This document shows, in pieces, positions 19,088 to 63,807 of a stretch of 64,000 bases of DNA (position 1 is its first letter; the number at the start of each line of letters is the position of its first letter). Source of the stretch: Candidatus Halobonum tyrrellensis G22 (GTDB lineage Archaea; Halobacteriota; Halobacteria; Halobacteriales; Haloferacaceae). The translations under genes were made by a program, and so were the position numbers. The stretch lies in NCBI RefSeq assembly GCF_000495475.1, contig NZ_ASGZ01000057.1, positions 1 to 64,000 on the forward strand, in the 5' to 3' direction. The notes below the pieces were generated by a model. The model saw only the letters and a program-made list of their open reading frames with translations, had not been told where the DNA came from and made no database searches.

Positions 19088-20401
19088 CTACTCGGGCAGG
19101 TCGACCGAGACGGTGTGCTCGCCGGGCCCGTACGTCCGGGTCGTGTAGTCCAGCAGTTCCTGTTCGTCCGCGGTCGCCTCGCTGAACTCGCCGCCGGGCA
19201 GCGAGTGGACCGCGAGCGACAGCGTGAGTTCACAGCCGTCGGCGACGGTGAACGTCACGTGCGCCCGCCCGTCGTCGAGGACGACGTGGCCGTAGCTCTC
19301 CAGACAGTCCCGTACGTCCTCGCTGGCCCACGCCGACCCGCGGTCGGTGACCCCCTCGTCGGTGTTGCCCCAGGCGTAGCGGAGCAGGCGGTCCTGTTCG
19401 GCGTACAGCCCCTCCTCGCCGAGTTCCTCGATTGGCTCGCCCGCGACGAAGTCCACCTGGTAGCTCGTCGGCTCGCTTCCGCCGTCTCCGCCGCCGGAGA
19501 GGAGTTCCGCGGTCACGTCGCTCCACGCCACGCTCCCCTCGGCGGCGACGTTCGCGGGGTCGAGCGCGTCCGCGTCGAGCACCTGCGCGGGCGACAGCAT
19601 CGGCCACTCGTCGATACCGAGGAGTTCGCCGAGGCTGGGACCGGTCTCCGGCGGCCGGCCCGGCCCCTCGAACGACCCCTCCCAGTCGGGGACGGGGTCG
19701 GGGTCGCCAACCAGGATGCGGACCACCATCCCGAATATCTCGTGGGGCGGGCAGTTCGCGTCGTACAGCCCGGGTTCGGTGAACTCGTACAGCCAGAAGC
19801 CGCCGCCGCTGATGATCGGCGACGAGACGGGGGGAACGCCGTCGGGAACCCGCTGTTGGCGGCCGAACCCGGGGTGGTAGAAGGTGACGGCGTGGTCGGG
19901 CGTGACGAGGTTGAACCGGACGATGTCTCCGGGCTGGACGTGGAGGCCGACCGGGTCGAAGTAGAAGTACGGCGGTCGCATCTCCCCCTCGCCGGGGAAA
20001 CTGATCAGACACGACACCTCGTGGTCGGGCTGTAACTCCGCGGGCAACTCCTCGTCGCCGTTGGGGGAACTGTAGCCGTAGTAGGGGTCGATACGCCGCT
20101 CGTGACCGTCGGTGTGGCTCGCGGCGACACCCCTGGCGGCGGGTTCCGACTCGGCCGTCGCGGTTCCGCTCGCCAGCGAGGCGGCCGCGCCGACGCCGAC
20201 CGCCTTCAGTATCGACCGCCGGCCGACGCTGAGTCGCTCGACCGCCTCGACCAGGGCCGACCCGTCGAACTCGGTTCGCGCCGCGTCCGTCGCCGCTTCC
20301 GCGTCCGTCACCGCCTCCGCGTCCGCCGTCCGCGGTGTTCGCTCCGCGCGGTCCGTCCGATCCGCCGCACCGTCGGTGGCTCCCGATTGGTCTGGTGACA
20401 T
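19088..20401 (-). CDS. Tat-exported cupredoxin with novel C-terminal domain
   Basis: The 437 residues divide into three parts. An acidic leader (1-58) precedes a twin-arginine signal, GRRSILKAVGVGAAASLASG, with RR at 61-62. A cupredoxin domain (about 110-235) carries copper ligands in PDHAVTFYHPGF (His) and NCPPHEIFGM (Cys, His, Met). A C-terminal domain (312-437, YQVDFVAGEPIEELGEEG to YGPGEHTVSVDLPE) is shared with the proteins at 35.9-36.9 kb and 61.1-63.8 kb. It is probably an extracellular electron-transfer or copper protein. The ATG at 20401 gives a ~60-nt leader from the TATA box; a longer start at 20494 is less likely. The gene lies directly downstream of tatCt on the same strand. Confidence 0.85.
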   Translation of the reverse strand: MSPDQSGATDGAADRTDRAERTPRTADAEAVTDAEAATDAARTEFDGSALVEAVERLSVGRRSILKAVGVGAAASLASGTATAESEPAARGVAASHTDGHERRIDPYYGYSSPNGDEELPAELQPDHEVSCLISFPGEGEMRPPYFYFDPVGLHVQPGDIVRFNLVTPDHAVTFYHPGFGRQQRVPDGVPPVSSPIISGGGFWLYEFTEPGLYDANCPPHEIFGMVVRILVGDPDPVPDWEGSFEGPGRPPETGPSLGELLGIDEWPMLSPAQVLDADALDPANVAAEGSVAWSDVTAELLSGGGDGGSEPTSYQVDFVAGEPIEELGEEGLYAEQDRLLRYAWGNTDEGVTDRGSAWASEDVRDCLESYGHVVLDDGRAHVTFTVADGCELTLSLAVHSLPGGEFSEATADEQELLDYTTRTYGPGEHTVSVDLPE

Positions 20402-20484
20402 GGGTTCGTGGGGTCGAAGCGCCGGTGCCGAGCCGACCGACCGACCGGCGCGCGCCTCTCCCGAGTGAACGATCGTGTACGACA

Positions 20485-20493
20485 GCTTAAACA
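20485..20493 (-). promoter_or_regulatory. TATA-like element of the cupredoxin gene
   Basis: On the minus strand GTGTTTAAG lies ~85 nt before the chosen ATG at 20401, within GAACGTGTGTTTAAGC. It implies a short 5' leader. Its presence shows that the cupredoxin gene can be transcribed independently of tatCt. Confidence 0.5.
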
Positions 20494-20620
20494 CACGTTC
20501 TAGGTTACATACCGGGATCGTTCCCGGCCGACCGGACGAATCGGTCGGGGAGACGACGGAACGTGGCCGGTACCGGCGCCGGGAGGCAGGTTCGAAGGCG
20601 CGAGCGGGGCGCCGAGTCGG

Positions 20621-35873: not shown

Positions 35874-36929
35874 GTCCGCGAGGGGGTCGGTCCCCGAGTC
35901 CCCTCCTCGTCTCCCGGTCTCCTCGTCGCTCTCCGAGTCGTCCTTTCGTCTTCCCGTCTCCTCGTCGCTCTCCGAGTCGTCCGCGTCGTCGGGCAGGCTC
36001 ACCGTGATGGTGTGCTCGCCGGGACCGTACGTCTCGGTGGTGGCGTCGAGGAGAACCTGTTGGTCGACGGTGTCCATCGAGAACTCATCAGCAGGCATCG
36101 AGTAGGTCACCAGCGACAGCGTCACGCTCTCGCCGTCGGCGACGGTGAACGTCACGCTCGCGGTGCCGTCGTCGCGTTCGACGACGTGGCCGTACTCGAC
36201 GGCCGACCGGATGGACTCGTTGGCCCACGCGGAGTCCTTCTCGCTGATGGCCTCGCCCGTCTCGCCGAACGCGAACCGCAGCAGGCGGTCCTCGTCGGCG
36301 TACAGCCCCTCCTCGCCGAGTTCGTCGATGGGCTGACCCGCGACGAAGTCGACCTGGTAGTAGGTGTCGTTCGTCCCCGAGTCGTTGCCGCCGTCGCCGG
36401 GTTGTGCGGTGTCGTTACTCGGCTCCGCGAGCGGGAGGTAGTCCGTGTTGCTGTCGTTGATCCGGAGGGGCTCGTCGCAGAACCCGTCGCCGTCGGCGTC
36501 CGCACACGTCTGGCTGTAGCCCGTCCCCGCCTCGTTGACGTAGTAGTTGCCGCCGTGGCTGTCGCCGTCGACGATGTTCTCGCCGGACCGCGCGGAGACG
36601 TTCCACGTGTTGTTCCCCGAGACGGAGTCGCCGAGCGACTCGTTGGCGGGCACGGTGATCCGGTTGTCGTAGACGAGGTTCGACTCGCCAGCGATGCTCG
36701 TTCGCTCGGGGTAGAGTGAGTTGCCGCGGATCGTGTTCTCGCTCGACTCCGCGTCGATGGAGACCCGAACGCCGGTGCTGTTCCGGATCGTGTTGTCGTC
36801 GCTCGACCGGAACCGAGTCACGAGACCGTTGAACCCCGAGTCGGCGAACGTCGCCCCCGTCGCGTTGGCGAGCACGACACCCCTGTACTCCGACTGGACG
36901 GAGACGGTGTCCAAACCGGTGGGTCGGTC
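35874..36929 (-). pseudogene. Truncated NosD-like surface protein with shared C-terminal domain
   Basis: The reading frame begins right after the TGA of the upstream Usp gene, with no signal peptide and only a TTG as possible start. It encodes the last turns of a NosD-type beta helix (NLVYDNRITVPANESLG, ADADGDGFCDEPLRI, DSNTDYLPL), then the C-terminal domain YQVDFVAGQPIDELGEEGLY to YGPGEHTITVSLPDD. An acidic 13-residue repeat follows (DDSESDEETGRRK twice), after which the frame runs on without a stop through the antisense of the GNAT gene. The intact homologue at 61.1-63.8 kb shows what is missing at the 5' end. Both ends are broken, so I call it a decayed gene. Confidence 0.75.
35911..35988 (-). 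repeat. Two 39-bp tandem repeats in the NosD-like remnant
   Basis: A 27-nt core (35917-35943) recurs exactly at 35956-35982, an offset of 39 nt or 13 codons. Each unit encodes DDSESDEETGRR plus one variable residue. The in-frame period suggests an acidic linker that expanded by slippage while the gene was still coding. Confidence 0.85.
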
Positions 36930-61128: not shown

Positions 61129-63807
61129 ATGGTGACACACGACACGAGCCGGGCGCGCGGCGCGCTCGCACTCGCGGCGTCGGTCGTCCTCGTCGTCTCG
61201 GCGGCCGCTGCGGGCGTGAGCCTGACCGCGGTCGGGACCGCGAGCGCGGCGCCGACGGGGGTCACCGCGTGTACGACCATCGTCGAACCGGGCGCGTACG
61301 AGTTGCGCGCGAACCTCAGCGTCTTGGGTTCCACGTGTCTCACCGTCGAAGCGAGCGACGTGACCCTCGACGGGAACGGGTACGCGGTCGAGCGGACGTC
61401 CCCCGACGACTCCTCGTCGCTGCCGCCCGGGTACCGCGAGTCGGCGGCGGTGCTGGTCGGCGGGACCGAGTCTCTGACGAACGTCACGGTGACGAACGTC
61501 ACGGTCCGCGTCGAGAGTCTGGGGTCGGGCGAGGTCACCACGCGCGGAGTCGCGTTCCGGAACGTCTCGCGGAGCACGCTCGCGGACGTCCACCTCACCT
61601 CGCGGGTCTGGCCGACCGTCGAGGTGGTCGGCTCGAACAACACCGTCCGGAACGTCACCCGCGTGAGGGGGGTGTTCGAGGTCGTCGGCGACGACAACTT
61701 GCTCGTCGACAGCGTCGCGGGAACCGGCGACGATATCCGGTACGCTACGTCTATCACCGGCGACCGGAACCGGGTCGAGAACCTCACCAGCCTCGGCGAT
61801 CCCGGTCTCCGGGTCTCCGGGCGCGCGACGGTCGTCCACAACAGCACGTTCGGCGGCATCTACAGCCCTCCGGCGAACTTCACGGACGCGCCCGAGACCC
61901 GGTTCGTGAACAACACGGTCCGCTCCCGCGGTTCCGTCCGGTTCGCCAACAGCAGTTCCGTGGTGGTCCGAGCGAACACGGGCGGCGTCGTCCTGGTCGA
62001 CAGCGACGACAGTGAGGTGGTCGACAACGACCCCGCGTACCGACTCGCCCTCTTCGACACCGACGGCGCCGTCGTCCGCGGGAACCGCGTCGGGTCCGAG
62101 GGGATCGGTCTCTACGGGTCGGCGTCGAACCTGATCTACGACAACCTGGTCCGCGCGGACGACCCGGTCACCGTCGAGGCGCGCCCGAACGAGTCGGTCG
62201 GGGCGAACCGGTGGAACGTCACGCCACGGCCGGGCGAGAACGTCGTCGGCGGCGACACCGTCGCGGGCAACTTCTACGGAGACGACGACGGGTTCAGCCG
62301 GACCTGCGAGGACGCGGACGGCGACGGACTCTGCGACTCCCCGTACGAACTGGCCGAGAACAACACCGACTCCCACCCGTTGGTCGACCCGATCCGCGAC
62401 GTCCCGTCGCCGCCCCTCTTCGACATCGTGAGGCTGGACGTCCCCCGGCGAGTGGCGCCCGGCGAGACCGCGAGGGTGCGGATGAACGTCACGAACACCG
62501 GCGAGACCGCGGGCACCCAGACCGTCGGGTTCCGGGTCGACGTCGACGCCGACGGGACGCCCGACCCCGTGGGGCTGAACGAGACGATGACGCTCGCGCC
62601 CGGCGAGCGGCGGAACCTCACCTTCGCGTTCCCCACCGCCGGCGTCGAGCGGGGGGAGTACCGGTACGCGGCGTTCACCGACGACGAGCGCGTAGGGGGG
62701 CGACTCTCGGTCGAAGACCCGCCCGAGACGAACTTCACGGTCACCACCGCCGGCACGTCCGCGACCGTCGTGCGCGGCGACACGCTGACGACGACGGCGA
62801 CGATATGGAACGAAGGCGAGGCCACGGGAACACAGACCGTCGAGTACCGGTTCGACGTCGACCGGGACGGAACCCCCGAGTCGGTCGGGCTGAACCGGAC
62901 CGTGACGCTCGCTCGCGGTGAACACCGGCGGGTCGCGTTCGACTACCCGACCGCCGACCTCGACCCCGGGACGTACGTCCACGGCGTGTTCACCCGGAAC
63001 AGCAGTCTGACGTTCGAACTCGACGTGAGAGAGCCCGACCCGCCCGCGACCGACCTGTCGGTGTTCGCGCTCGACTCGCCGTCGGTCGTCGTGCGCGGGG
63101 AGACGGTCACGGCGGAGGCGAACGTCTCGAACTGGGGCGACTTGACGGGGACGTGGACCGTCGAGTACCGGATCGACGCCGACGGCGACGGAACCCCCGA
63201 ACCGGTCGGGGTGAACGAGACGGTGACGCTCGGACCCGGCGAGAGCAGACAGGTCGCCTTCGAGTTCCCCACCGACGGGCTCGACCCGGGGACGTACACG
63301 CACGGCGTCTTCGCCGCCGACGAGCGCGTGACGGCTGACCTCGTCGTCGCGGGTGCCGAGGCGACCCGCTACCAAGTCGACTTCGTCGCCGGCCACCCCA
63401 TCGAGAACCTCTCGGCCGACCGCCTGTACGCGAAACAGGACCGCCTGCTCCGGTTCGCGTTCGGCGTCGCCGGCGCGGGCGTCACCGACCGCGGCTCCGC
63501 GTGGCCGAGCGCGGAGGTCCGCGAGTGCGTCGACTACGGGCACGTCGTCGAGGAGAACGGCACCGCGTCGGTGTCGTTCGCGGTCGCCGACGGCTGTTCG
63601 AACGTGACGCTGTCGCTCGCGGTCCACTCGATGCCCGGCGCGACGTTCTCGGTGGACACCGTCGACCAGCAGGAACTCCTCGACGCGACGACCGGGACGT
63701 ACGGGCCGGGCGAGCACACCATCGCGGTCGGCCTGCCCGACGCGGACGACGACTCGACCGTGCCCGCCGCGCGACGGGTCGCGCCGCATACGTCGGTGAC
63801 CCCGTAG
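61129..63807 (+). CDS. Surface protein: NosD beta-helix, three CARDB-like repeats, novel C-terminal domain
   Basis: The 892 residues have a signal peptide (about 1-42), then a parallel beta-helix of the NosD/PbH1 type (about 45-420, many GNxxxVxN turns) closed by EDADGDGLCDSPYEL and NTDSHPLV. Three tandem ~104-residue repeats follow, starting near 428, 534 and 638. Each has the pattern RGDTLTTTATIWNEGEATGT...DPDG-containing strand...PGTYxHGVF and resembles CARDB adhesion modules. The last ~130 residues (from about 746, YQVDFVAGHPIENL) are the domain shared with the cupredoxin and the 35.9-kb remnant. It is rich in NxT/S sequons. There is no transmembrane anchor at the C-terminus. Confidence 0.85.
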   Translation: MVTHDTSRARGALALAASVVLVVSAAAAGVSLTAVGTASAAPTGVTACTTIVEPGAYELRANLSVLGSTCLTVEASDVTLDGNGYAVERTSPDDSSSLPPGYRESAAVLVGGTESLTNVTVTNVTVRVESLGSGEVTTRGVAFRNVSRSTLADVHLTSRVWPTVEVVGSNNTVRNVTRVRGVFEVVGDDNLLVDSVAGTGDDIRYATSITGDRNRVENLTSLGDPGLRVSGRATVVHNSTFGGIYSPPANFTDAPETRFVNNTVRSRGSVRFANSSSVVVRANTGGVVLVDSDDSEVVDNDPAYRLALFDTDGAVVRGNRVGSEGIGLYGSASNLIYDNLVRADDPVTVEARPNESVGANRWNVTPRPGENVVGGDTVAGNFYGDDDGFSRTCEDADGDGLCDSPYELAENNTDSHPLVDPIRDVPSPPLFDIVRLDVPRRVAPGETARVRMNVTNTGETAGTQTVGFRVDVDADGTPDPVGLNETMTLAPGERRNLTFAFPTAGVERGEYRYAAFTDDERVGGRLSVEDPPETNFTVTTAGTSATVVRGDTLTTTATIWNEGEATGTQTVEYRFDVDRDGTPESVGLNRTVTLARGEHRRVAFDYPTADLDPGTYVHGVFTRNSSLTFELDVREPDPPATDLSVFALDSPSVVVRGETVTAEANVSNWGDLTGTWTVEYRIDADGDGTPEPVGVNETVTLGPGESRQVAFEFPTDGLDPGTYTHGVFAADERVTADLVVAGAEATRYQVDFVAGHPIENLSADRLYAKQDRLLRFAFGVAGAGVTDRGSAWPSAEVRECVDYGHVVEENGTASVSFAVADGCSNVTLSLAVHSMPGATFSVDTVDQQELLDATTGTYGPGEHTIAVGLPDADDDSTVPAARRVAPHTSVTP

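Follow-up and report, generated by a model that had tools for sequence, protein, structure and literature searches.

A predicted beta-sandwich module shared by many exported proteins of a haloarchaeon, copied between unrelated genes and possibly involved in cell-surface retention

What kind of domain ends three otherwise unrelated genes of one archaeal contig, and what might it do for the proteins that carry it? The question is raised by a 64,000-nucleotide stretch of Candidatus Halobonum tyrrellensis G22 (contig NZ_ASGZ01000057.1, positions 1 to 64,000; hereafter, the window), in which a sequence-only reading had reported three copies of such a domain. All three lie in open frames at the places reported, and the observation is real. 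Their pairwise identity is 64-66% over 126-127 aa, and with the copy at 35985 as query the other two were matched at E-values of 8.5e-49 and 1.6e-47, which excludes a chance likeness.

Copy 1 (19088..19468, minus strand; stop codon at 19088-19090) forms the C-terminus of a Tat-exported cupredoxin protein. Its host gene (19088..20494, minus strand) encodes a Tat signal (RRSILKAVGVGAAASLASGTATA) without a lipobox, a plastocyanin/pseudoazurin-like cupredoxin and then the domain; the Pfam family Copper-bind was matched at E 7.5e-4, just under the cut-off, and the NCBIfam pseudoazurin model at E 8.7e-7, also below its cut-off. Copy 3 (63364..63741, plus strand) is C-terminal on a NosD/CARDB protein (61129..63807, plus strand) that comprises a Sec-type signal, a NosD beta-helix, three CARDB repeats, the domain and a 21-aa tail without a membrane helix. 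Copy 2 (35985..36366, minus strand) ends a NosD-like gene (35900..36929, minus strand) that had been called decayed, and the damage is evident: a UspA-like gene terminates at ~36930, and the NosD-like remnant starts immediately afterwards, lacks a signal sequence and has lost its original stop codon. The closest relative of this gene (L035) ends in ...SESDE-stop, unlike the window copy, which reads on. Because the stop codon has been lost, a 39-bp tandem duplication just 3' of the domain (35907..35982, minus strand) is read through.

With one copy as query, the source genome (3.68 Mb in 72 contigs) proved to contain 33 copies of this ~125-aa domain, three of them in the window; matches were counted at E ≤ 1, and the weakest had an E-value of 1.4e-16. 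Two subfamilies were recognized, one with the pattern YQVDFVAGxPIExLGEEGLYAxQDRLLRFAxG (subfamily 1; 22 full copies, including all three of the window) and one with YQVDFVAGxxxxLGESDDDFYGRQxRLIQYAHG...DTWINSL (subfamily 2; 10 copies). The one copy beyond them, on contig C35 (L034:2895-3167), is an isolated fragment of the C-terminal 91 residues in which the YQVDFVAG half is absent, and no matching frame was found within ~500 bases upstream. As a name, "C-terminal domain" suits ~25 of the 33 copies and fails as a general wording, since five are N-terminal, immediately following a Tat signal, and another two lie inside the protein. The usual dose is one copy per protein. Hosts belong to about 20 unrelated types. 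About ten are sugar enzymes (GH2 and GH3, two each, GH10, GH15, GH43, arabinofuranosidase-like and DUF1080); other enzymes are PhoD phosphatase, 5'-nucleotidase, M14 and S9 peptidases and a phytase-like protein, and the remainder comprises NosD-like beta-helices, the cupredoxin, VWA, FG-GAP (three), choice-of-anchor I and DUF7282 proteins. Thirty-three copies on so many unrelated host types argue for a generic role rather than recognition of the substrate of one enzyme. Gln4, Asp6 and Arg27 are among the polar residues that do not vary between copies, even where the hosts are unrelated.

The domain had been considered undescribed, and our comparisons agree. Neither Pfam (best E 0.016 over 32 copies scanned, none convincing) nor NCBIfam (best E 0.077 among the copies scanned) nor PHROGs provided a model, the only PHROGs match being that of one copy to an unannotated family at 0.003. 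No solved structure in PDB was convincingly related to it, and literature searches for its motif returned no match. The enzyme AaBglC (8zvk, E 0.004) showed two low-scoring repeats over ~70 columns, which we judged to be chance or a common strand pattern. A structure prediction by AlphaFold2, with the window copies and four relatives as input and copy 1 as the modelled sequence, was confident (pLDDT 88.5, pTM 0.83) and is mostly beta, plus two short helices, in line with the beta-sandwich that the sequence-only reading had raised as a possibility. Comparison of this model by VIA-align gave the best score for MXRA8 (Z 6.2 over 94 residues, rmsd 3.6) and values of Z 5-6 for numerous V-type immunoglobulin domains. 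Such middling scores suggest, for a predicted structure, the arrangement of a sandwich and not kinship with immunoglobulin domains. Foldseek returned nothing at E ≤ 0.001; its matches to LolA, Jagged and DLL4 were set aside for low TM-scores and large rmsd, and structure matches in BFVD likewise.

Two cysteines vary among the copies: copies 1 and 3 of the window have both and copy 2 has neither. Among 83 copies, 49 contain both, 32 neither, two only the second and none only the first, so that 81 of the 83 have or lack the pair as a whole. The simplest explanation of this joint occurrence is a disulfide, and the two cysteines probably form one, which would fit an extracytoplasmic location.

How did one domain reach so many unrelated proteins? 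Copies on unrelated hosts have DNA identities of 84-95%, with the similarity starting and stopping within ~40 bases of the domain edge. In the clearest case, a 5'-nucleotidase host and a DUF7282 host are 94.7% identical over 412 bp between unrelated flanks. Because the similarity stops at the domain edge, the coding module itself must have been copied, and the mobility proposed earlier is thereby borne out; these genes offer a clear example of sharp-edged domain copying at the DNA level. At fourfold-degenerate sites, close pairs are more alike than composition would predict and distant pairs about as alike as it predicts, which indicates that copying was spread over time. In a tree of the 83 copies, those of the source genome are strongly clustered (6 label changes, versus 25.6 in shuffles), pointing to an expansion specific to this lineage. 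For two pairs (L044/L046 and L058/L033) the entire gene, not the module alone, has been duplicated. No mobile-element signature was seen at the module edges: visual inspection revealed no target-site duplication, and a consistent terminal inverted repeat was likewise absent.

Every host with a readable N-terminus in the source genome (30 of 30) carries an export signal, ~24 of them Tat and ~6 Sec, just as the sequence-only reading had claimed for its three proteins; the other three of the 33 are the decayed window gene, a frame at a contig edge and the C35 fragment. A simple scan of the 33 host frames found neither a lipobox nor a transmembrane segment after the domain in any of them. Tat signals and membrane helices were compared over ~0.9 Mb, about a quarter of the genome, by crude regular-expression and hydropathy scans, not by trained predictors. 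Among Tat-exported domain hosts, none of 23 has a lipobox and none of 23 a C-terminal membrane helix, whereas 24 of 40 other Tat-like candidates possess a lipobox (Fisher p 4e-7); the true lipoprotein share among these 40 is higher, because several are membrane-protein false positives. The published share of haloarchaeal Tat substrates with a lipobox is 46-65% (PMC2945643). In contigs C2, C64 and C5, which were largely tiled and scanned more loosely, the domain is present in 13 of ~15 Tat proteins without an anchor (two of these 13 are truncated where a tile ends); the clear unanchored cases that lack it number only two, an 831-aa frame in L159 and a 363-aa frame in L156. As for Sec hosts, a C-terminal transmembrane segment is present in none of six and in both of the two clear Sec proteins without the domain.

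Homologues of the host proteins show what may stand in place of the domain. The PhoD phosphatase of the source genome ends in it, and other relatives have a lamin-tail domain at the same terminal slot. A 66% identical homologue from another haloarchaeal family (L245:796-3027) has a dockerin-like C-terminus (Dockerin_1 at E 7e-4, just below the cut-off), and one homologue ends in a lamin-tail domain and a PGF-CTERM-like anchor. These ends imply that the domain of the PhoD protein sits in an attachment or docking slot. Within the family, homologues of the choice-of-anchor I host have no visible anchor (the query was slightly altered at its N-terminus and matched its own gene at 97% identity), nor do the nearest homologues of the cupredoxin; since both are anchorless, the domain has been added to these hosts and not swapped for an anchor. 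Several of the choice-of-anchor I homologues (L192, L193, L195, L196 and L201) have short Gly-, Asn-, Lys- and Arg-rich tails in place of an anchor, e.g. GNGRKNGRGNGRGS. In some Haloarculaceae (L092-L094, L096 and L097) the domain is followed by a hydrophobic C-terminal tail of the protein's own, and it is therefore not the sole anchor there. Judged by such sequences, the domain is no simple anchor replacement everywhere.

One relative was found outside the archaea. An LPXTG-type protein of Paenibacillus filicis (L062:5692-7134) shares the domain's motifs, but as a circular permutation with the C-terminal half in front. Its carrier resembles the haloarchaeal hosts in being exported and is anchored to the cell wall, and the shared motifs are VxFxxAxG, SLxSYxxP, TxTFGPGTHxLxVxLP and YYxxDFxxG; the permuted order, unlike these, was found in no archaeal copy. 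A duplicated profile extended the match across the junction and raised its score from 26.1 bits to 39.7; when the second half of the protein was shuffled 500 times, the scores were 26.1 +/- 0.9 bits with a maximum of 32.7. A single-sequence model of the bacterial domain was set aside (pLDDT 49). No further bacterial member was found in 398 Bacillota genomes, and no permuted copy in plasmids, phages or viral contigs. The permuted form may be common in Actinobacteria, an assumption that we do not use as evidence. By eye, the adjoining gene (L062:7166-7894) looks like one for a sortase. Here, a circularly permuted relative of the domain sits on a sortase-type surface protein of a bacterium.

To our knowledge, it is not settled how haloarchaea retain Tat-exported proteins that have neither lipobox nor membrane helix. 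We consider it an evenly balanced proposition that the domain is a lineage-expanded extracytoplasmic beta-sandwich module that keeps Tat and Sec proteins without lipid or membrane anchors at the cell surface. The module would have been copied onto unrelated exported proteins within the lineage, would bind a common component of the envelope (the S-layer glycoprotein, its glycans or a scaffold protein), and by this binding would retain its hosts after export. Retention is favoured because almost all unanchored Tat proteins of the three tiled contigs carry the domain, which in the sampled part of this genome is mutually exclusive with lipobox and C-terminal membrane helix, and also because the Paenibacillus relative belongs to an LPXTG-type protein with an adjoining sortase-like gene. 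An earlier suggestion of binding or sorting gains strength from this complementarity with lipid and membrane anchors and from the PhoD slot, and is still something that we infer rather than observe; the exclusion of lipoboxes would equally arise if the domain merely marked fully released enzymes. A bolder and distinctly more tentative version is a dedicated haloarchaeal retention system, in which one beta-sandwich tag and an envelope receptor would constitute a third route beside lipid anchors and archaeosortase, spread by module copying. Surface retention of Tat proteins of this kind is directly testable with one tagged domain.

Such a module would resemble the two anchors already known in haloarchaea in part only. 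The lipobox is likewise a generic device that holds Tat-exported proteins at the cell surface, but it consists of a short signal whose cysteine is lipidated, whereas the domain is folded and none of its 23 sampled Tat hosts has a lipobox. PGF-CTERM/archaeosortase anchors are also C-terminal on many exported haloarchaeal proteins and, as in the PhoD homologue above, a PGF-CTERM-like end can fill the same slot; however, they span ~28 residues with a membrane helix and a basic tail, while the domain has ~125 residues, is free of such a helix and is sometimes N-terminal.

The other readings differ from surface retention chiefly in what the domain would contact. It could act as a carbohydrate-binding module, targeting secreted hydrolases to polysaccharide substrates or the extracellular matrix, as the roughly ten glycoside hydrolases and related sugar enzymes among the hosts and the frequency of beta-sandwich folds in carbohydrate-binding modules suggest; but the cupredoxin, PhoD, 5'-nucleotidase, peptidases, FG-GAP and VWA proteins are equally hosts, and no CBM family appeared among the Pfam matches of the domain copies. 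Identity between copies reaches 90% or more even where the hosts are unrelated, so that no adjustment to a host's own substrate is seen, and we regard sugar binding as rather unlikely. Docking into an extracellular multi-enzyme complex, with an unseen scaffold protein as partner, is unlikely as well. Like type I dockerin, the domain is one portable module distributed over many different extracellular enzymes of one genome, and a dockerin-like end occupies its slot in the PhoD homologue; yet no scaffold was found, the two EF-hand loops of dockerin are absent from a domain predicted to be a beta-sandwich, and Dockerin_1 did not match any copy in the Pfam scan. A cohesin-like look of some hosts in other genomes (L059 and L061) was dropped, since neither Pfam nor PDB confirmed it. 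Both readings overlap with surface retention.

A domain without a specific partner, which stabilizes or spaces freely released proteins, would be compatible with Tat substrates of the released type, with the anchorless homologues of some hosts and with the small acidic sandwich domains that haloarchaeal secreted proteins commonly have. Its placement is flexible, but usually with a single copy per protein; moreover, the invariant Gln4, Asp6 and Arg27 on unrelated hosts exceed the needs of a spacer, and unanchored Tat proteins are covered almost completely, which makes this reading quite improbable. The C-terminal domain of type IX secretion is also of beta-sandwich size, mostly C-terminal and found on dozens of exported proteins, and the placement of ~25 of 33 copies together with dozens of clients per genome might recall a C-terminal signal for secretion or sorting that a dedicated export machinery recognizes. 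The five copies right behind a Tat signal and the two internal ones argue strongly against such a signal. Moreover, every readable host already has a Tat or Sec signal, haloarchaea have no outer membrane, and Pfam and NCBIfam scans gave no sequence match to the type IX domain; we therefore hold an export signal to be very improbable.

Finally, the domain was matched in 38 of 392 Halobacteriales genomes, and a search across the phylum Halobacteriota placed its members in Halobacteriales only. Other genomes have up to 10-12 copies, the 33 of the source genome being the highest number observed. One protein of genome G134 (L089:1015-2358) contains two tandem divergent copies, and a secreted protein on a contig from a viral collection (L098:3608-4540) reads as an Excalibur-like part followed by the domain.
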